The translations under genes were made by a program, and so were the position numbers. A stretch of DNA of 64,000 bases. Source: Pseudoxanthomonas gei (GTDB lineage Bacteria > Pseudomonadota > Gammaproteobacteria > Xanthomonadales > Xanthomonadaceae). Numbering within the stretch: the first letter of the stretch is position 1; each line of letters starts with the position of its first letter. Below, one piece after another: positions 237-55,490 of the stretch. The stretch lies in the NCBI RefSeq assembly GCF_010119615.1, contig NZ_QOVG01000002.1, forward strand, positions 248,001 through 312,000. The letters run 5' to 3'. The notes beneath the pieces are model-generated. The model was not told the origin of the DNA. It saw nothing but the letters and a program-made list of their open reading frames with translations, and did not search any database.

Positions 237-3089
237 TTACAGCTTGGCGCGCTGTTCCTGCAGGCCGCTCAGCTGGGCGCTCCAGTCGAGCAGGCGCTGG
301 CGTTCCTGGTCGATGACGGCCGGCGGGACCTTGTCGCTGAATTTCCCGAGCTTGGCTTCGCTCTTCTCCTTCTCGGCCGCGACCCGGGCAATCTCCTTGT
401 CCAGGCGCGTGCGTTCGGCATCCAGGTCGACCAGTCCTTCCAGTGGTACCAGCAGCTTCAACTCACCCACGATGGCCACGGCCGAAGCGGGAGCCTGTTC
501 GTTTTCCTGCAGCCATTCGATCGCTTCAAGCCTGAGCAGGAAGGCCAGCTGCGACGCATAGCGATCGGCCAGCTTGCGATCGTTGGCGTTGCCATCCTGC
601 AGCAGCAGGCGCACCTGCTTGCCGGGTGACACACCCAGCTCGCTGCGCACGCGGCGCAAGCCCGAGACCATGTCCTTCAACCACTCGACGTCGATACCGG
701 CCTGCGTGTAATCGTCGGCAGCATGATCGGACGCGGCCGGGTAGGGCTGCAGTGAAATCGTCGGCGCATCGATGCCCAGGCGTGGGGCGACCTGCTGCCA
801 GAGTTCCTCGGTGACGAACGGCACCAGCGGGTGCAGCAGGCGCAGCAGCGCTTCCAGCACGTACAGGACGGTGTGGCGGGTGCTGTCGGCGGCCGCCGCA
901 TCGCCACCGTTGAGCGCCGGCTTGGACAGTTCCAGGAACCAGTCGCAGAACTCGTTCCAGGCGAATTCGTACAAGGTCTGCGCAAGCAGGTCGAAGCGGT
1001 AGCTGGCGTAGTGGGTTTCGGCCTCGGCCGTGGCCTTGGCGAGGCGCGACAGGATCCACTTCTCGGCGTCGGTGACAGCCGCGGGAGTGCCTGCGGGAGC
1101 CGCGAAGCCCTCGGTGTTCATCAGCACGAAGCGCGTGGCGTTCCACAGCTTGTTGCAGAAATTCTTGTAGCCCTCGGCGCGGCCCATGTCGAACTTGATG
1201 TCGCGGCCGTGGTTGGCCAGCGCGGCGATGGTGAAGCGCAGCGCGTCGGCGCCGTGCGCGGCAATGCCATCGGGGAATTCCCGGCGCGTGGCCTTCTCGA
1301 TCTTGGGCGCGTCGGTCGGCTTCATCAGGCCGGTGGTGCGCTTGGCGATCAGGTCTTCCAGGCTGATGCCGTCGATGATGTCCAGCGGGTCCAGCACGTT
1401 GCCCTTGGACTTGGACATTTTCTGCCCGTCCTTGTCGCGGATCAGGCCGGTGATGTAGACGTCCTTGAACGGCACCTGCCCGGTGAAGTGGTCGGTGAGC
1501 ATGATCATGCGCGCGACCCAGAAGAAGATGATGTCGAAGCCGGTGACCAGCACGCTGCCGGGCAGGTAGCGGTCGAAGCCGCGCTCGTCCATGGCGCCGG
1601 CATCGGGCCAGCCCATGGTGCTGAAAGGCCACAGGCCCGAGCTGAACCAGGTTTCCAGCACGTCGTGGTCCTGGGTGAGGCGGATTCCGGTCGCTGATGT
1701 TGTGGGAGGGGCTTCAGCCCCGACGCTTTCACCCACCTGCGCGGTCGGGGCTGAAGCCCCTCCCACAGAAGCGGCGGCCTTTGCATAGGCCTCTTCTTCG
1801 GTGCGGGCGACGTAGTAATTGCCTGCCTCGTCGAACCACGCCGGGATGCGGTGGCCCCACCAGAGCTGGCGGCTGATGCACCAGTCCTGCAGGTTCTCCA
1901 TCCAGTGGCGGTAGGTGTTGATCCAGTTACCCGGGACGAAGCGCACGTCGCCGTCGTTGGCGAGCTTCAGGCCGCGCTCGCCCAGCGCGTCCATCTGCAC
2001 GAACCACTGGTCGGTCAGGTAGGGCTCGATCACCTGCCCGGTGCGGTCGCCCTTGGGCACCTGCAGCTTGTGCGGCTTGGTTTCGACCAGCAGGCCTTGG
2101 TCCTCGAGGTCGGCCAGGATGCGCTTGCGTGCTTCGTAGCGATCCAGCCCGCGGTATTGCTCCGGTGCGTTGTCGTTGATCGATGCGGTCGGGGTGAGGA
2201 TGTTGATCAGCGGCAGATGGTGGCGCAGGCCGACCTGGTAGTCGTTGAAGTCATGCGCCGGGGTGATCTTGACCACGCCGGTGCCGAATTCGCGTTCGAC
2301 ATAGGTATCGGCAATCACCGGAATTTCGCGATCAGTCAGCGGCAGCTTTACTGTCTTGCCGACCAGGTGCGCATAGCGCTCGTCTTCCGGATGCACGGCC
2401 AGCGCCGCATCGCCCAGCATGGTTTCCGGGCGCGTGGTCGCCACGGTGAGGGTGCCGCTGCCGTCGCTGAGCGGGTAGGCAATCGACCACAGGAAACCAT
2501 CCTGCTCCACGTTCTCCACTTCCAGGTCCGAGATCGCGGTCTGCAGTACCGGGTCCCAGTTGACCAGGCGCTGGCCGCGGTAGATCAGGCCTTCCTCGTG
2601 CAGGCGCACGAAGGCTTCGATAACGGCCCTGGAGGCCGGCGGATCCATGGTGAAACTGCTGCGGCTCCAGTCGCCCGAGGTGCCCATGCGTCGCATCTGC
2701 CGCTCGATGGTGTCGCCGGACTGCGCCTTCCATTCCCATACTTTCTCGATGAAGCCCTTGCGGCCCAGCGAATCGCGGGTCTCGCCATTGCCTTCCAGCG
2801 CGAGGTTGCGCGACACCACCATCTCGGTGGCGATGCCGGCGTGGTCGGTGCCGACCTGCCACAGGGTGTCGTAGCCGCGCATGCGGTGGTAGCGCACCAG
2901 CGCGTCCTGCAGGGTGTGCTGGAACGCATGGCCCATGTGCAGGGTGCCGGTGACGTTCGGCGGCGGCAGCAGGATGGTGTAGGGCTCGCCCTTGCCGCTG
3001 GGCTTGAAATAGCCGGCGCTTTCCCACTCGGCGTAGAGGCGTGCCTCGAAGGACTTGGGGTCGTAGCTGGGTGCGAGTTCGGCGGTCAT
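237..3089 (-). CDS. valS: Valine--tRNA ligase
   Basis: Cytoplasmic class I aminoacyl-tRNA synthetase that charges tRNA(Val) and edits mischarged threonine. The HIGH signature is HMGHA near residue 51 after PPNVTGTL, and the KMSKS signature is at about residue 557. The CP1 editing domain, anticodon-binding region and C-terminal coiled coil ([18 protein letters not shown]) are present. The start at [15 protein letters not shown] is chosen because homologues begin there. The frame is open upstream to a GTG at 3194, but that extension reads like translated spacer. About 950 aa, normal length. Oddity: a perfect palindromic repeat is embedded in frame at about residues 441-463, just before the conserved [13 protein letters not shown] segment. 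It lies downstream of holC and pepA on the same strand, with a 131-nt gap after holC. Confidence 0.97.
1701..1767. repeat. REP-like palindrome inserted in frame in valS
   Basis: Two 24-nt arms (1701-1724 and 1744-1767) are perfect reverse complements around a 19-nt loop. The core is GTGGGAGGGGCTTCAGCCCC. This family normally lies between genes in xanthomonads. Here it is read through without a stop as Gly/Ala/Pro-rich residues ([20 protein letters not shown] on the valS strand) in the variable stretch between the [10 protein letters not shown] segment and the conserved catalytic-domain motif that follows. Confidence 0.9.
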
Positions 3090-7569: not shown

Positions 7570-7729
7570 GGGCGGGCCCTGGCCCGCCATTGACATGGTC
7601 AGGCTTGCGATGGCAATGGAACGAATCCATTCCCGCGCGTGTGACGACTCGCGCCGATCCGCGTCGATGTCACCCGGTTGCCGTCGGGGCCCTGGGGGAT
7701 GGCAATGGCGGGTTGAAACCCGCCCTACG
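7570..7729. repeat. Pair of palindromes around the 3' ends of lptG and the RDD gene
   Basis: At 7571-7588 the stem GGCGGGCC / GGCCCGCC has a 2-nt loop. At 7702-7729 the related palindrome CAATGGCGGGTTGAAACCCG continues CCCTACG. Read on opposite strands both share the core CAATGGCGGG...CCCGCCCT, so this is an inverted pair around about 110 nt between two convergent genes. The right copy contains the TAG stop of the RDD gene (7725-7727). The pair could serve as a bidirectional terminator. Confidence 0.65.
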
Positions 7730-9288: not shown

Positions 9289-9530
9289 TCGGTAGAAGAC
9301 ATGGGGGTGGGCCGCCATGTCGTAACTCACAGGCGCGGAAATGGTTCGCGCCATTGCCACCGCGGGCGCGGGCGCAGCAATGGCGGGCTTCGTTCGATGG
9401 CCATCGCGACCGGGCGCATGGCAATGGCGGGTCAAGACCGGCCTTACGCACGGGAAGGGGTTCATTCCATTGCCGTCGCGAGGGGGAAGATGGGAATGGC
9501 GGGTCAAGACCCGCCCTACGCGTTTATCGC
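9289..9530. repeat. Spacer downstream of xerD with degenerate GGCGGGTCAAGACCCGCC palindromes
   Basis: No gene is supported here. Copies of AATGGCGGGTCAAGACCCGC or near relatives lie at 9421-9448 (partly degenerate) and 9492-9520 (clean stem, followed by CCTACG), with a half copy near 9377. They belong to the same family as the pair at 7570-7729. Several frames are open across it only because it is GC-rich. Confidence 0.65.
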
Positions 9531-9656
9531 GAGGCAAATTGACTCACGCACGAGGCAAATCCACTCAGCGATGAGGCAAATTGACACACGCACGAGGCAA
9601 ATCCACTCAGCGATGAGGCAAATTGACTCATCGTTGAGCCAGATTCCCTCGCCGTC
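9531..9656. repeat. 21-bp tandem repeats, six units in a 42-bp super-period
   Basis: Six head-to-tail 21-nt units all begin GAGGCAAAT or a close variant. Type A, GAGGCAAATTGACTCACGCA, and type B, GAGGCAAATCCACTCAGCGA, alternate A-B-A-B-A; the sixth unit is diverged. The two B units are identical and the A units differ at a few positions. The GAGGCAAAT blocks recur every two helical turns, on one face of the DNA, about 180 nt before dsbC. Translating it gives only seven-residue repeats in unlikely frames. Confidence 0.9.
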
Positions 9657-15273: not shown

Positions 15274-18200
15274 ATGAATCGTATTTATCGCAAGGTTTGG
15301 GATGCGGCCCGCGGCGTGGTGGTGGCTTCGGAATTGGCAAAGTCGAAAGGCAAGGGCAAGGGCGGCAGGCTGCTGCAGGCGGTAGCGCTTGCAGGTGCGC
15401 TAGGCGCGACGACCAGCGCGCTTGCCGCGGGGGTCTGTTCCGTGACTGGAACCAGCCTGGGTACGGCGGCCACCGCCGTCGGGGCCAACTCCTTCGCCTG
15501 CGGTGCCAACGGCACCATCGCCAACGGCAGCGGGGCCAACGCATTCGGTACGCAGGCCCGCGCCGTGGGCGCCAACACCACTGCCGTGGGCAATTTGGCT
15601 TGGGCAACGGCTGCCAACGCGACCGCAGTGGGACAGGATTCGTTTGCTGCCGGAATCAACTCCACCGCCGTGGGCAATTTCGCTTGGGCAACGGCTGCCA
15701 ACACGACCGCAGTAGGACAGGACTCGTTTGCTGACGGAATCAGCTCCACCGCAGTAGGCGTCTCCGCCTATGCGTTGGGCGACGACGCCGTGGCCGTGGG
15801 ATACGCCAGCCGGGCTACCGGCTTGGGCAGCGTGGCAGTGGGCGGCAATGCGGGTGGCTTTGCGGCCGAGGCGCTGGCTGATGGCGCCGCCGCGTTCGGC
15901 TCCGGCTCCGGCGCGCTCGCTGACTTCACCACCGCCATTGGCACCCTGGCTTCCAGCGATGCGGTGCAGGGCACCGCGCTGGGCGCGGGTTCTTATGCCA
16001 GTGCCGAAAACAGCGTGGCGCTCGGTGCGTTGTCGGTAGCTGATCGTGTGGACACCGTTTCAGTAGGCGCCGCAGGCGGCGAGCGGCAGGTGGTGAACGT
16101 GGCCGCCGGTACCGAGGGCACCGATGCGGTGAACCTGGACCAGCTTCAGGATGCCACCGCCAGCACCCATTATTTCCAGGCTTCGGGCAACGATCCGCTT
16201 GATGCGTCGTCCGATCCGGGCGCGTTCGTCGACGGCATCAACGCGACGGCCGCCGGTGATGCGGCCAATGCGATCGGCGCGGGCGCGTCGGCCTTCGGCA
16301 GCGGTGCCAATGCCTATGCCGACGGCGCCACCGCGGTGGGCTTCAATGCACTGGCGTTCGATGCCAATGCCGCGGCCTTTGGCAGCAATGCCCAGGCCCT
16401 CGGCGACTCGGCCACGGCGGTGGGTTCGGACAGCCTGGCCAGCGGTTTCGGGTCCGCGGCCACCGGCGCCGCCAGCCTCGCTTCTGGCGATGTGGCCACG
16501 GCCGCGGGCTTCGCCAGCGAGGCCTCCGGCCTGGGCGCCAGTGCGCTGGGTGCTTTATCGATTGCCAGCGGCGACTATGCGACTGCGGTGGGTGTGGCGG
16601 CCGAGGCCTCCGGCCTGAGCAGCTTGGCGGTGGGCGATTTCAGCATCGCTTCGGGTGATGAGAGCTTGGCCCTGGGTTCCGGCGCCGTGGCGGTGGGTGC
16701 CCTGAGCTCGGCAGTGGGCGGGCTGAGCTTCGCCGACGGCGCCAACTCAACCGCGATCGGTGGTGCCGCGTTCGCATCGGCCGATGACTCCACGGCCTTG
16801 GGCTTTGCATCAACTGCCTTGGCCGCCAACAGCGTGGCCCTGGGTACCCTGTCGGTCGCCGACCGCGCGGACACCGTCTCGGTGGGCGATGTCGGTTTTG
16901 AACGCCAGATCACCAACGTGGCCGCGGGTGTGGAAGACACCGATGCGGTCAACGTGGCGCAGTTGAACGACGTGGCAGACGTTGCCGCGGGCACCGATCG
17001 TTACTTCAAGGCCGACGGTTTGAATGACGGTACCGACGATGCGTCCATCGCCGGCATCGGTGCGGTGGCCATTGGCGCCAGCGCAATCGCCAGCAACGAC
17101 GGCGCCATCGCGCTGGGCGCAGCCAGCGAAGCCAGCGGCGAGCAGGCCATCGCGGTAGGCGCCGGCAGCGTGGCCAGCGGCGACGGCAGCGTGGCCACGG
17201 GTGCGTTGAGCGAGGCCTCCGGCCTCGAGTCGACCGCCAATGGTTACTTCAGCACCGCCTCCGGTGACTTCGCCACCGCAATTGGCGCAGAGTCGATTGC
17301 CAGTGGTACCGAAGCAGCGGCCTTTGGCTATGCGGCCGAGGCCTCGGGCAACTACAGCACCGCCGTGGGCGGCAATGCTTGGGCCGCGGGTTTCAACAGC
17401 ACCGCGCTCGGCAATTTCAGCACGGCTACCGGTTCCTCGGCCGTGGCACTGGGTTCGGACAGCACGGCCGATGGTGACTACAGCTTGGCCGTGGGCCAGG
17501 CCAGCACGGCTTCGGGCGAGGCCAGCGTGGCCGTAGGCCAGGGCAGCATTGCCACCGGCATCAACAGCGTGGCCGTCGGTGGCGCCACTTCGTTCGGTAC
17601 CGAGGCCAGTGGCGACTACAGCACTGCGGTCGGTGGTGAAGCCTGGACTCCGGGTTTCAACAGCACGGCGCTGGGCAATGCCTCGATCGCCTTTGGGGAC
17701 AACACCGTCGCCCTGGGCTCCGATGCCATCGCCGAAGCCGAAGGCAGCGTGGCCCTCGGCCAGGGTTCCTATGCCGGCCGCGACAACACCGTGTCGGTGG
17801 GTGACGTGGGCAGCGAACGCCAGATCACCAACGTGGCTGCCGGTACCGAGGGCACCGATGCGGTGAACTTGGACCAGCTGACCGCCGTGGCCGATGTGGC
17901 CGCGACCACCAACAAGTACTTCCAGGCCTCCGGTGGCCCGGGCAGCGATGCCGGTGCCTACGTGGACGGCGACTACGCCACGGCCGCCGGTGAGGCGACC
18001 AATGCGATCGGCGAGGGCGCCTCGGCCTTCGGCAGCGGCGCCCTGGCCTATGCCGACGGCGCCACGGCAGTAGGGTTCAATGCACTGGCTTCGGGCCAGA
18101 ACAGCGCCGCCTTCGGCCAGAACGCCCAGGCCACCGGCCCGGCCGCGGTCGCGGTCGGCGGCAATGCGGTGGATGAGAACGGCGATCCGCTGATCACCAA

Positions 18201-21200
18201 TGGTGGCGTGCCCGTAGACACCGGCGCGACCAGCGCTGGCGTGGGCGGCACCGCGGTCGGCGCCAGCGCGCAGGCCGATGGCTTTGCCGCCACGGCGGCG
18301 GGCGTGGGTGCCTATGCATCGGGCGCGCAGTCCTCCGCCTTCGGTGCGGTGGCCAACGCCACCGGTGACTACTCCACCGCGGTGGGCACGGAAACCACCG
18401 CCTCGGGCACCAGCAGCGTGGCCGTCGGTGGCCCGGCAGACCTGATTCCAGGCCTGGGCTTCTTCGTGACCACCCAGGCGACGGGGGAAAGCTCGGCCGC
18501 ATTCGGCGCGGGCACCATTGCTTCGGGTGACTACAGCACGGCGGCCGGCAGCCTGTCGGAAGCGGCAGGCCTGGAAAGCACGGCGGTGGGCTATTTCGCC
18601 TATGCCGCTGGCGACAACGCCAGTGCCCTGGGCGCCGAGTCCTGGGCCAGCGGCACCAACAGCACCGCAGTCGGTTTCTACAGCACGGCTTTCGGCGAGT
18701 ATTCGGTTGCCGTGGGTGACAACAGCCTGGCCAGCGGCGACGAATCGGTGGCACTGGGCGGCAGCGTGGGCGGCTCCATCTCCACCGAGGCAGCGGGTGC
18801 GGGCGCCACGGCATTGGGTGCCGGAGCCCTGGCCGTGGGCGACCAGAGTTCGGCGGTGGGCTGGCTGAGCACGGCCGAGGGCCTCAACTCAACCGCGGTC
18901 GGTGGTACCGCGGTGGCATTGGCCGATGACTCCACGGCCTTGGGCTTTGCTTCAACTGCCCTGGCCGCCAACAGCGTCGCCCTGGGTACCGGTTCGGTCG
19001 CCGACCGCGCCGATACCGTCTCGGTGGGCGATGTCGGTTTTGAGCGCCAGATCACCAACGTCGCCGCGGGTGTGGAAGACACCGATGCGGTCAACGTGGC
19101 GCAGTTGAACGAGGTAGCCGACGTCGCCGCAGGCACCGACCGTTACTTCAAGGCTGATGGTTTGAATGACGGAACCGACGATGCCTTCATCAGCGGCGTG
19201 GGTGCGATTGCAATCGGCGCCAATGCGGTCGCCAGCGCGGACAACGCCATTGCCCTGGGTGCGGGCAGCCAGGCCACGTCCGAGTACGCAACGGCTGTGG
19301 GTGCAGGCAGCGCGGCGAGCGGCGAGCAGAGCACGGCGACCGGCGCGCTCAGCGTGGCCAGCGGCGATGGCAGCGTGGCCACGGGTGCGTTGAGCGAGGC
19401 CTCCGGCCTCGAGTCGACCGCCAATGGCTACTTCAGCACCGCCTCGGGCCTGGGCTCGACGGCATTGGGTGCCGAGTCCACCAGCAGCGGCGATTACGCC
19501 ACCGCGGTGGGCCTGGCGTCGACGGCTTCGGGCGTCAGCAGCGTGTCGGTGGGCGAGTACAGCATCGCTTCCGGTGACGAGAGCGTGGCCCTGGGCGGGA
19601 CGGCGTTCGGCTTGTTCAGCGCCGAGGCCAGCGGCTACGGCGCCGTGGCTTTGGGTGCGGGCACTTACGCGGCGGGCGACTTCAGTTCGGCGATCGGCTG
19701 GCTGACCGAGGCGACCGGCTTCAACAGCACGGCCGTCGGTTCGGCGGCCAGCTCCGCGGGCTACAACAGCACCGCACTGGGTTCGGATTCCGAAGCAGTG
19801 GGCGAAGGCAGCGTGGCCCTCGGCCAGGGATCCTATGCCGACCGCGACAACACCGTGTCGGTGGGTGACGTGGGCAGCGAACGCCAGATCACCAACGTGG
19901 CTGCCGGTACCGAGGGCAGCGATGCGGTGAACCTGGACCAGCTGACCGCCGTGGCCGATGTGGCTGCGACCACCAACAAGTACTTCCAGGCCTCCGGTGG
20001 CCCGGGCAGCGATGCCGGTGCCTACGTGGACGGCGACTACGCCACGGCCGCCGGTGAGGCGACCAATGCGATCGGCGAGGGCGCCTCGGCCTTCGGCAGC
20101 GGCGCCAATGCCTATGCACTCAACGCCACGGCGATCGGCTTCAACGCCCTGGCCATTGGTGAGAGTGCCCTGGCACTGGGCGCCAGCAGCCAGGCGACGG
20201 GTGAATTCGCCACCGCAGTGGGTGCTGAAAGCGAAGCCAGCGGATACCTGTCGACCGCGACCGGCGCCGGCAGCGTGGCCAGCGGCGATGGCAGCGTGGC
20301 CAGCGGTGCATTGAGCGAAGCCTCGGGCGAGGAATCCACGGCGCTGGGCTTCTTCAGCAGCGCTTCGGGTGACGTGTCCACGGCGCTGGGTGCCGAAAGT
20401 ATCGCCTCGGGTATCGAAGCGACCGCCGCCGGTTTCCGCAGTGAAGCCTCAGGCGTGGGTGCCAGTGCACTGGGTTCGGAGTCGCTCGCCAGCGGTGACT
20501 ATTCGACGGCAGTAGGCTTGGCGGCTTCGGCCACCGGCCTGAGCAGCGTGTCGGTGGGTGAATACAGCATCGCCTCCGGCGACGAGAGCGTGGCCCTGGG
20601 TGGCACGGCCTTCGGAACCCTGAGTGCGGAAGCCAGCGGTGCCGGTTCCACGGCGCTGGGAGCCGGGGCCTGGGCCACCGGTGACCAGAGCACGGCGACC
20701 GGCTGGTTGAGCACGGCCGATGGCGTCAACTCGACGGCCGCGGGCGCGGCATCGTGGGCGGAAGCCGACGACTCCACCGCCCTGGGTTACGGTTCCTACG
20801 CCTCGGCCGCCAACAGCGTGGCCCTGGGCGCGGGTTCGGAAGCCGATCGCGTCAACACGGTCTCGGTGGGTTATGCCGGCGGCGAACGCCAGATCACCAA
20901 CGTGGCCGCGGGTGTGGAAGACACCGATGCGGTCAACGTGGCGCAGTTGAACCAGATCACCGGCGACCTCAGTGACCTGGCCGCTGATGCGGTGACCTAC
21001 GACGACGCCAGCAAGGACACCCTGACGCTGGAAGGCGCCACTGGCACCACCATCACCAACCTGGCGGCTGGTGCCATCTCTTCCACCAGCACCGACGCGA
21101 TCAATGGCGGCCAGTTGTACGGTTCGCTGGACAGCATCGCCACCGCCCTGGGCGGCGGCACCTATGTCGGCGCGACCGGCGGCCTGGTCGGCACCACCTA

Positions 21201-22188
21201 CGTGGTGCAGGGCGGCGATTACTTCAACGTCGGCGACGCCCTGGCGGCGATTGATGCAGCGGTGACTTCGATCGACGGCAGGCTGACCGTGGTGGAAAAC
21301 ACTCCGCCTCCGGGTCCGGCTCCTGATCCGCATATCGCGATCGGCGGCGAGACCGACGGCAGCGACCCGGCGGTGATCGGTGCAGGCACCAATGCCGTGG
21401 CCATAGGTTCCAACGCCACCGCCAACGCCGATGGTGGCGTGGCGATCGGCGCCGATGCCTACGCCCATGGCCCCAATGACACCGCGATCGGTGCCGGCTC
21501 GCATGTCGGCGCCGATGGCAGCACCGCGGTGGGTGCCAATACCACCATCAGCGCCACCGCCACCAACGCCGTGGCCGTGGGTGAAGGGGCCAGTGTCACG
21601 GCCGCGTCGGGCACGGCGCTGGGTCAGGGCGCTTCGGTAACGGCGGCCAACGCGGTGGCCCTGGGCCAGGGTGCGGTCGCCGACCGCGCCAATACCGTGT
21701 CGGTGGGCAGCGCGGGCAACGAACGTGCGGTCACCAACGTGGCCGCAGGTACGGCGGCTACGGATGCAGCCAACCTGGGCCAGGTGCAAGCCGGCGATGC
21801 GGCCACCCTGGCGACCAGCAAGGCCTACACCAACACCACTGCAACCCAGACCCTGACCTCGGCCAACGCTTATACCGATTCGCGCTTCGCGGCCATGGAT
21901 GACAGCTTCGAGGACTTCCGTACCCAGACCGATCGCCGCTTCCTCGACCAGGACCGTCGCATCGATCGCCAGGGTGCGATGAGCTCGGCCATGTTGAACA
22001 TGGCAACCAGCACCGCCGGCATCCGCACCGACAATCGCGTCGGCGTCGGCATCGGCTTCCAGGGCGGCGAGAAGGCGTTGTCGGTCGGTTACCAGCGTGC
22101 GCTGAGCGACCGCGCCACCATCACCATCGGCGGCGCGTTCAGCGGCGACGAGAAGTCGGTGGGCGTCGGTGCCGGCTTCGGCTGGTGA
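15274..22188 (+). CDS. Giant trimeric autotransporter adhesin (YadA-like)
   Basis: Type Vc secreted surface adhesin, 2304 aa. The N-terminus MNRIYRKVWDAARGVVVASE is an extended signal peptide region (ESPR), with cleavage predicted after TTSALA. The passenger is almost entirely YadA-head 14-residue repeats (pattern SxAxGxxSxAxG, e.g. ATAVGAESEASG). It is broken by seven neck motifs of the form DTVSVGxxGxERQITNVAAG, each followed by DAVNxxQL. A short stalk, a proline hinge (ENTPPPGPAPDP) and a second head precede the C-terminal YadA anchor (about 2228-2304, ending GVGAGFGW). Internal modules are duplicated at DNA level. It lies alone before a secreted protease gene. The ligand cannot be told from sequence. 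Confidence 0.95.
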   Translation: MNRIYRKVWDAARGVVVASELAKSKGKGKGGRLLQAVALAGALGATTSALAAGVCSVTGTSLGTAATAVGANSFACGANGTIANGSGANAFGTQARAVGANTTAVGNLAWATAANATAVGQDSFAAGINSTAVGNFAWATAANTTAVGQDSFADGISSTAVGVSAYALGDDAVAVGYASRATGLGSVAVGGNAGGFAAEALADGAAAFGSGSGALADFTTAIGTLASSDAVQGTALGAGSYASAENSVALGALSVADRVDTVSVGAAGGERQVVNVAAGTEGTDAVNLDQLQDATASTHYFQASGNDPLDASSDPGAFVDGINATAAGDAANAIGAGASAFGSGANAYADGATAVGFNALAFDANAAAFGSNAQALGDSATAVGSDSLASGFGSAATGAASLASGDVATAAGFASEASGLGASALGALSIASGDYATAVGVAAEASGLSSLAVGDFSIASGDESLALGSGAVAVGALSSAVGGLSFADGANSTAIGGAAFASADDSTALGFASTALAANSVALGTLSVADRADTVSVGDVGFERQITNVAAGVEDTDAVNVAQLNDVADVAAGTDRYFKADGLNDGTDDASIAGIGAVAIGASAIASNDGAIALGAASEASGEQAIAVGAGSVASGDGSVATGALSEASGLESTANGYFSTASGDFATAIGAESIASGTEAAAFGYAAEASGNYSTAVGGNAWAAGFNSTALGNFSTATGSSAVALGSDSTADGDYSLAVGQASTASGEASVAVGQGSIATGINSVAVGGATSFGTEASGDYSTAVGGEAWTPGFNSTALGNASIAFGDNTVALGSDAIAEAEGSVALGQGSYAGRDNTVSVGDVGSERQITNVAAGTEGTDAVNLDQLTAVADVAATTNKYFQASGGPGSDAGAYVDGDYATAAGEATNAIGEGASAFGSGALAYADGATAVGFNALASGQNSAAFGQNAQATGPAAVAVGGNAVDENGDPLITNGGVPVDTGATSAGVGGTAVGASAQADGFAATAAGVGAYASGAQSSAFGAVANATGDYSTAVGTETTASGTSSVAVGGPADLIPGLGFFVTTQATGESSAAFGAGTIASGDYSTAAGSLSEAAGLESTAVGYFAYAAGDNASALGAESWASGTNSTAVGFYSTAFGEYSVAVGDNSLASGDESVALGGSVGGSISTEAAGAGATALGAGALAVGDQSSAVGWLSTAEGLNSTAVGGTAVALADDSTALGFASTALAANSVALGTGSVADRADTVSVGDVGFERQITNVAAGVEDTDAVNVAQLNEVADVAAGTDRYFKADGLNDGTDDAFISGVGAIAIGANAVASADNAIALGAGSQATSEYATAVGAGSAASGEQSTATGALSVASGDGSVATGALSEASGLESTANGYFSTASGLGSTALGAESTSSGDYATAVGLASTASGVSSVSVGEYSIASGDESVALGGTAFGLFSAEASGYGAVALGAGTYAAGDFSSAIGWLTEATGFNSTAVGSAASSAGYNSTALGSDSEAVGEGSVALGQGSYADRDNTVSVGDVGSERQITNVAAGTEGSDAVNLDQLTAVADVAATTNKYFQASGGPGSDAGAYVDGDYATAAGEATNAIGEGASAFGSGANAYALNATAIGFNALAIGESALALGASSQATGEFATAVGAESEASGYLSTATGAGSVASGDGSVASGALSEASGEESTALGFFSSASGDVSTALGAESIASGIEATAAGFRSEASGVGASALGSESLASGDYSTAVGLAASATGLSSVSVGEYSIASGDESVALGGTAFGTLSAEASGAGSTALGAGAWATGDQSTATGWLSTADGVNSTAAGAASWAEADDSTALGYGSYASAANSVALGAGSEADRVNTVSVGYAGGERQITNVAAGVEDTDAVNVAQLNQITGDLSDLAADAVTYDDASKDTLTLEGATGTTITNLAAGAISSTSTDAINGGQLYGSLDSIATALGGGTYVGATGGLVGTTYVVQGGDYFNVGDALAAIDAAVTSIDGRLTVVENTPPPGPAPDPHIAIGGETDGSDPAVIGAGTNAVAIGSNATANADGGVAIGADAYAHGPNDTAIGAGSHVGADGSTAVGANTTISATATNAVAVGEGASVTAASGTALGQGASVTAANAVALGQGAVADRANTVSVGSAGNERAVTNVAAGTAATDAANLGQVQAGDAATLATSKAYTNTTATQTLTSANAYTDSRFAAMDDSFEDFRTQTDRRFLDQDRRIDRQGAMSSAMLNMATSTAGIRTDNRVGVGIGFQGGEKALSVGYQRALSDRATITIGGAFSGDEKSVGVGAGFGW

Positions 22189-38129: not shown

Positions 38130-38420
38130 CCCGAGTGCTGCTTCGCTCGCCGGACCCACGCGAGGGGTTACGGCCTGGAGTGCAAGGGTGTATCGGGGAT
38201 CAACGGCAGCAGGAACGAGACGCCCGCCAGTCGGCGTTTGCTCGCAGCGTCAATCTTCCTGGCAATGAGCGGTCAGGTCGACCGGGCGCGCACCAGATCC
38301 TGTAGGAGCGACGCAGGTCGCGAAGCTTCCATCGTCCGGACGGCGATGGCTCGGCGACCCGCACTGCTCCTGCAAAATCCGGGATCAGGCGACCGGGCTG
38401 CGATGTAGTGGTCAGGTGTG
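38130..38420. repeat. Gene-free spacer with an imperfect TGTAGGAGCGACGC inverted pair
   Basis: No coding region is supported. CTGTAGGAGCGACGCAGGTC (from 38300) is a copy of the repeat family seen at 28-177. An imperfect reverse-complement mate (TCGGCGACCCGCACTGCTCC, from 38351) follows after about 21 nt, so the two arms could pair. The repeats lead directly into the 80-bp tandem array. Confidence 0.7.
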
Positions 38421-38738
38421 ACGCATCGGCAAAATCGCGCTGCACGCGGTGCTTTTCAGATCAGGAACAAAGTCCGTGGATTCCCGCCTGCGCGGGGATG
38501 ACAGATTGGCCAAGCCGCGCTGCAAGCGGTGCTTTTCAGATGAAGAACAAAGTCGCTGGATCCCCGCCTGCGCGGGGATGACAGATAGGCTAAGCCGCGC
38601 TGCGCGCGGTGCTTTCAGATGAGGAACAAGGTCGCTGGATCCCCGCCTGCGCGGGGATGACAGATAGGCTAAGCCGCGCTGCGCGCGGTGCTTTCAGATG
38701 AGGAACAAAGTCGCTGGATCCCCGCCTGCGCGGGGATG
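38421..38738. repeat. 79-80-bp tandem array built on the GIY-YIG terminal palindrome
   Basis: Four units (38421-38500, 38501-38580, 38581-38659, 38660-38738) run head to tail, followed by a 30-nt partial fifth. Each unit has a CCGCGCTGC-rich part, GCTTTTCAGAT, then AAAGTCGCTGGATCCCCGCC and TGCGCGGGGATGAC. The last two parts form a hairpin. Units 3 and 4 are almost identical and units 1 and 2 more diverged. It is not CRISPR: there are no variable spacers. The palindromic 34-nt part matches the ends of the GIY-YIG element at 26246-26629. Confidence 0.9.
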
Positions 38739-38779
38739 ACGCATTGGCAAAACCGCGCTGCGCGCGGGCCAATGCGTCA
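38737..38779 (-). terminator. Long hairpin at the 3' end of ettA, built from the array edge
   Basis: Outer arms TGACGCATTGGC / GCCAATGCGTCA (12 bp) enclose an inner stem CCGCGC / GCGCGG. The right arm contains the ettA stop codon (TGA on the minus strand) and the left arm begins inside the last array unit. There is no T-run on the ettA strand. It likely protects or ends the ettA transcript. Confidence 0.6.
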
Positions 38780-54958: not shown

Positions 54959-55490
54959 ACTTTCATCGACGCTTTGCTTTCGATGAAAGTCCCAAAGTTT
55001 GCTTTGCAAACTTTGGGCCCCTGGCTTGTGCCTCCAATTCCCCGCCGCTGTCGCGGCGCCCCCTTTACCAAAGGGGGCTGTTGCTCCGCTTTCGACTGAT
55101 GGCTCCGACAGTAGACGGGGCGATGAGAGTCGCGACTTTCCGCGCTACGCCCAGGAAAATCCCAAAGTTTGCTTTGCAAACTTCGGGCGCCGCTTGTTAT
55201 CCAATTCCCTGCCGCTGTCGCGGCGCCCCCTTTACCAAAGGGGGCTGTTGCTCCGCTTTGGACTGATGGCTCGGGCACTAGACGGGGCGATGGGAGCCGC
55301 GACTTCCCGCTCTGCGCCAGAAAAATCCCAAAGTTTGCGTTGCAAACTTCGGGCCACGCTTGTGCCAGCGATTGCCCGCCGCCGTCGAGGCGCCTGCTTG
55401 CCAAAGGGCCTGTCGCTCCGATCCTTGATCGATGGTTTGGCATTGCAGGGTGCGGCCGGGCACGGCAGGGGCGAGGTAGGTAGTGATTGA
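54959..55490. repeat. Triplicated ~168-bp repeat with strong hairpins downstream of rnpB
   Basis: After an 11-bp stem ACTTTCATCGA / TCGATGAAAGT (54959-54990) the spacer holds three diverged copies starting at 54991, 55161 and 55327 (periods 170 and 166). Each copy begins with a hairpin CCCAAAGTTTGC-TTT-GCAAACTTTGGG or a variant. The first two then share CGCTGTCGCGGCGCCCCCTT and a second palindrome CCCCCTTTACCAAAGGGGGC. No gene is supported. Frames open through it are a by-product of repetition. Confidence 0.88.

Follow-up and report, generated by a model that had tools for sequence, protein, structure and literature searches.

The valS gene of Pseudoxanthomonas gei carries within its coding sequence a REPIN, formed by two inverted REP units, and in relatives the same loop of valyl-tRNA synthetase (ValS), together with a second one, repeatedly hosts repeats of different families. 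The first-pass annotation of the window (the whole stretch of 64,000 nucleotides analyzed) had described a REP-like palindrome translated in frame inside valS and had missed this recurrence. We consider it quite likely that repeats mobilized by a RAYT transposase last within genes only if the loop they enter can accommodate an inert, disordered peptide.

Table 1. Positions in the window of valS, of the REPIN and its parts, and of the two variable sites of ValS
Feature	Position	Strand	Description
valS, valyl-tRNA synthetase, 950 aa	237..3089	minus	ATG at 3089, stop at 237-239
REPIN, two inverted REP copies	1701..1767		Encodes ValS residues 441-463 (23 residues)
REP unit 1, TGTGGGAGGGGCTTCAGCCCCGAC	1701..1724	plus	
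Spacer/loop separating the REP units, 19 nt	1725..1743		
REP unit 2, inverted	1744..1767	minus	All 24 positions complementary to unit 1
Site A, loop of variable length, residues 438-470	1680..1778	minus	ValS alignments, hairpin survey; relatives have no insert or other REP families
Site B, loop residues 662-672, empty here	1074..1106	minus	Repeats in about 40/131 relatives

The identity of the gene was confirmed by a match of Thermus ValRS (1GAX) to the encoded protein (E=1.6e-212), and full-length ValS is encoded by a single copy in the genome. The position and description originally given for the palindrome held, and we add only that the gene is read on the minus strand. As the annotation had stated, the 24-nt arms are perfect (each is the exact reverse complement of the other across the spacer), translation passes through the element without a stop and with the frame kept, and the added Gly/Ala/Pro-rich peptide lies directly ahead of a conserved motif of the catalytic domain, D474-x-D476-V-L-x-T-W-F-S-S. 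In the window the 20-nt REP core is found exactly two times; shuffles, even when allowed three mismatches, predict 0.04 occurrences. In an AlphaFold2 model of ValS, the mean pLDDT was 90.2 and values below 50 were found only at residues 445-459, within the repeat peptide; this Gly/Ala/Pro-rich peptide is thus predicted to be disordered, and it is probably inert.

The window contains several other repeats. Just downstream of the valS stop codon is a second perfect inverted pair, CTGTAGGAGCGACGCCCGTCGCGAAGCAGTGGA, with 33-nt arms 84 nt apart (28-60 and 145-177), and a related copy is found at 38299-38326. Five 21-nt tandem units, alternating between GAGGCAAATTGACTCACGCAC and GAGGCAAATCCACTCAGCGAT, occupy 9531-9656; four tandem units of 79-80 nt with GGATCCCCGCCTGCGCGGGGATGACAGAT palindromes lie at 38454-38770; and units of about 170 nt with the palindrome CCCAAAGTTTGCTTTGCAAACTTTGGG lie at 54981-55363. 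A long, degenerate coding array of 42-54-nt units with GS-AVA-G motifs, at 15541-21786, looks like a trimeric autotransporter adhesin of the YadA/Hia type.

We found 42 half-sites of the REP core genome-wide at up to two mismatches and none with a reversed control. Most of the places where it occurs are plus/minus inverted pairs spanning about 56-65 nt, and the copies elsewhere in the genome include exact ones. At its foot the hairpin has GTGG in this genome and GTAG in relatives that share the core, so that, as a variant, this tetranucleotide matches the GTAG type loosely. A RAYT gene of 181 codons (G000:C22:233621-234166) has this REP on both sides, and its product carries a DHWHG motif and a match to Y1_Tnp (PF01797) above the Pfam cut-off. 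The family thus shows a short palindromic unit, repeated, arranged in inverted pairs with a short spacer, and accompanied by a RAYT, as expected of REPINs. RAYT proteins (TnpA-REP) are HUH tyrosine transposases that act on single-stranded hairpins. Binding and cleavage of single-stranded REP hairpins by TnpA-REP have been observed in vitro, including with the S. maltophilia enzyme (PMC8266576). The presence and absence of the REPIN among relatives suggest that it is mobile, and the RAYT is its presumed mover. A further locus with a Y1_Tnp-like match, L123, does not reach the Pfam cut-off and is accompanied by three copies of another REP, GGCGGGTY..RACCCGCC (GGCGGGTY..RACCCGCCCTACG), which is also present in the window at 7707-7729, 9426-9448, and 9498-9520 and is carried by relatives at ValS site A.

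The element resembles known REPtrons (REP/REPIN plus RAYT) in its two inverted REP units, its GTGG/GTAG head, its many exact genomic copies, and a linked HUH transposase gene with flanking REPs. However, REPINs are by definition mainly extragenic, and although the family as a whole is so located, the valS copy is coding and, like a copy in icmF, is translated. We examined 20 stretches besides the valS site, and only the valS and icmF copies (about 2 of 21 places) lay within Pfam-confirmed genes, most others being intergenic or ahead of genes, in line with the earlier description of this type of repeat as normally intergenic. Open reading frames that span copies upstream of TGT, ThiC, and malic enzyme were not counted, because there the element lies ahead of the Pfam domain and, probably, of the true start as well.

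We aligned 131 ValS sequences from the Xanthomonadaceae-type family and some from outside it. By its ValS the present genome falls among sequences like those of Pseudoxanthomonas and Stenotrophomonas. The first-pass annotation had proposed looking for length variation in relatives, and ValS proteins vary in length exactly at the position of the repeat: the segment between the anchors flanking site A ranges from 22 to 99 residues and is 50 residues long here but no longer than 25 in 87 of the 131. The opposite outcome that it had named, the same residues in all relatives with non-palindromic codons, is therefore not what the alignment contains. When aligned with 1GAX, site A falls between C417 and C438/C441, a region that we take to be the cysteine-rich zinc-binding knob of Thermus ValRS, missing in the ValS of the window. 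Site B corresponds in the model to the loop between the helices at 635-658 and 674-695.

A survey of the 131 genes yielded 11 ungapped hairpins with a score of at least 15, all of them at residues 438-472 or 662-672. Those at site A were in G000 (the present genome), G025, G120, and G266, and those at site B were in G002, G008, G013, G015, G073, G181, and LUTEI1. Only hairpins of this score were counted, since at scores of 11 to 12 shuffled sequences give as many as are observed; at 15 or above, codon-shuffled valS genes gave none, and chance or GC content was rejected as their source.

The occupants of the two sites belong to several unrelated families. Site A holds the present REP in G000 and G120; GTAGAGCGG in G025 and G266, whose genomes have 65 and 309 half-sites, respectively; and GTAGGGCGGG in paired form in G157 and as single palindromes in G010, G035, G181, G264, and G073, these single short REPs (8-bp arms) being recognized by their palindrome and CTACG end, with no support from folding energy. 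At site B, the present REP is found in G008, G015, and G073, in decayed form in G267, and in diverged form in G002, while CTTCCCCCGC..GCGGGGGAAGG is found in ten genomes (with 4 to 240 matches per genome, both strands counted); further occupants are CTCTCCC/GGGAGAGG composites and direct repeats of GGGACTC or CCATTCAC. On a FastTree phylogeny built without the insert columns, the hand-assigned classes required no fewer than 20 changes at site A and no fewer than 26 at site B, losses and non-REP inserts included.

Other kinds of sequence were also seen at site A. Three ValS proteins (G152, G177, and G138; loci L205, L203, and L202) have 74-99 residues between the anchors that are low in complexity or repeat-derived and are not simple REPINs, and six others (G019, G006, G075, G079, G242, and G268) have long inserts that look helical and do not seem to derive from repeats, implying that the port accepts ordinary insertions too. 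One sequence in the set (L009, JAHREJ010000003.1), titled Bacillus subtilis SK7B5, encodes a ValS that groups with Stenotrophomonas and probably comes from a mislabeled assembly.

As controls, we examined ileS, leuS, and alaS in 30 genomes of the genus and found no hairpins with a score of at least 15 in them, versus six in valS of the same genomes. The length of valS in these genomes ranged from 2772 to 3009 nt, and the matched stretches varied by 21 nt in leuS, 6 nt in alaS, and 12 nt in ileS (the last measured by match coordinates and leaving out a locus cut by a contig end). A general proneness of class I synthetases to repeats was rejected, given that ileS and leuS, like the class II alaS, were free of such strong hairpins.

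The same REPIN is also in frame in icmF, a fused methylmalonyl/isobutyryl-CoA mutase gene (L167, G000:C11:379896-383951; element at 2001-2056), where it encodes a 19-residue peptide between the GTPase and mutase domains. Different repeats occupy this linker in most of the genus (relatives L354-L383), and the icmF linker, behaving like the sites in valS, is a recurrent port as well. For this REP type, seven copies in valS and one in icmF were found, some of them related by descent, and 8 of 8 are read in one phase, which gives a VGGASAPT-like peptide, and all three phases of the REP entry arm are free of stops. The preferred frame and the recurrence of insertions at the same two loops could be taken to mean that selection favors the inserted peptide for some function in ValS, such as tRNA binding, solubility, or partner docking. 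We regard this as very unlikely, however, in that the inserts are unrelated in sequence, differ in length over the full range given above for site A, and are lacking in most species; the insert here is predicted to be disordered, and the preferred phase yields small, bland residues, as expected from tolerance alone.

With regard to the origin of the valS copy, the closest ValS, that of G003 (93% identical), has no insert at site A, nor do those of G026 and G033. Near-exact REP matches numbered 2 in G003 (an 89% complete draft), 0 in G026, 0 in G033, and 74 in G025. Because its nearest relative is without it, the repeat in valS is probably a recent, lineage-specific gain. An artifact of assembly or annotation is scarcely credible: the genome is a draft of 50 contigs, but the site lies inside a contig of 477 kb, the frame is open across the repeat, and analogous insertions are found in independent genomes.

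The first-pass annotation had left a choice between recent arrival and selection on the RNA hairpin, and the evidence favored the former and gave no support to the latter. The RNA of 1680-1790 folds with −68.5 kcal/mol (z=−6.2), and this stability, the perfect 24-bp arms, and the similarly perfect arms at site B in G015 and G073 would fit selective retention of the hairpin as an element of the mRNA, either slowing translation or acting in the control of the valS mRNA. Yet most relatives have no hairpin, and in G120, G267, and G002 the insertion no longer pairs but is still in frame, which argues against such selection. When folding energies were compared with those of synonymous recodings, z ranged from −4.0 to +2.2 among repeat-bearing segments, with no consistent signal, and selection on RNA structure was rejected on this ground. 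Since exact copies of the REP exist elsewhere in the genome, the perfection of the arms is better explained by recency, and we find it highly improbable that the hairpin itself has been selected.

We did not find a clean empty site. The residues flanking site A also differ between G000 and G003, the nucleotide identity of which falls to 0.71-0.76 around residues 411-485, versus 0.85-0.99 over most of the remainder. The repeat may therefore have come in with a short valS tract recombined from another species and not have transposed in place, and an 11-residue flank common to G000 and the more distant G025, which has a different REP there, points the same way. We think this possible but not probable: no relative fetched has the REPIN at site A along with matching flanks, save the distant G120, flank drift beside a tolerant loop would look similar, and the donor must still have acquired the repeat.

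We therefore retain transposition in place and tolerance as the preferred account. The REPIN would be a nonautonomous mobile palindrome, most likely moved by the RAYT of the genome, and its insertion at the valS locus would have been a single step. Most insertions into genes would be lethal or costly and be lost, and those that survive would leave the frame intact, enter in a phase free of stops, and occupy a loop exposed to solvent where extra residues are tolerated. ValS would offer two such ports: one is site A, at the knob, and the other is site B, which separates the first helix after the catalytic core from the second. Here site A would be filled by the REPIN as an inert disordered peptide, presumably neutral for the function of ValS. 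That loop insertions may be neutral has been suggested in PMC3733652. A further observation stands against this account: unrelated families at site B start within 1 to 2 codons of one position, for which chance plus tolerance offers no obvious explanation. The loops might instead be inherited landing ports, where, once one palindrome has arrived, later ones of unrelated families take its place or are added beside it at the same codon, perhaps as resident hairpin DNA attracts insertion or template exchange. We consider this unlikely; were it true, mobile repeats would keep rewriting the same loops in essential enzymes.

REPs lying in frame inside known genes have been reported, among them genes for tRNA synthetases in X. 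oryzae and others, and different REPs have been found at about the same recB site in X. campestris and X. oryzae (Di Nocera 2013, PMC3733652); the accessible part of that paper describes no ValS ports, no shared reading frame, and no site that hosts several repeat families in different members of a bacterial family. Rickettsia palindromic elements (RPEs), a classic counterpart, are, according to PMC10969869 (citing Ogata 2000, 2002), mobile palindromes that lie in frame in unrelated protein genes and are apparently tolerated. The element studied here likewise sits in frame in intact genes, with valS and icmF open through it, but RPEs are about 100-150 bp long, unrelated in sequence, and have a large share of their copies in genes. 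Membership in the RPE family was rejected for an element that is 67 nt long and GC-rich, from a Xanthomonadaceae-type gammaproteobacterium.

We found no open paper on repeat insertions in ValS. What is new, and was not found described, is that, within one bacterial family, the same two ValS loops, and the icmF linker, have been filled repeatedly by several unrelated repeat families. Intragenic REPs were earlier known as scattered curiosities, whereas the ValS loops amount to a natural replicated experiment that informs on the positions at which random peptides are tolerated, on the selection of reading frame, and on whether mobile palindromes prefer certain targets in genes. These loops carry indels that derive from repeats and that phylogenetic or structural work ought to mask.
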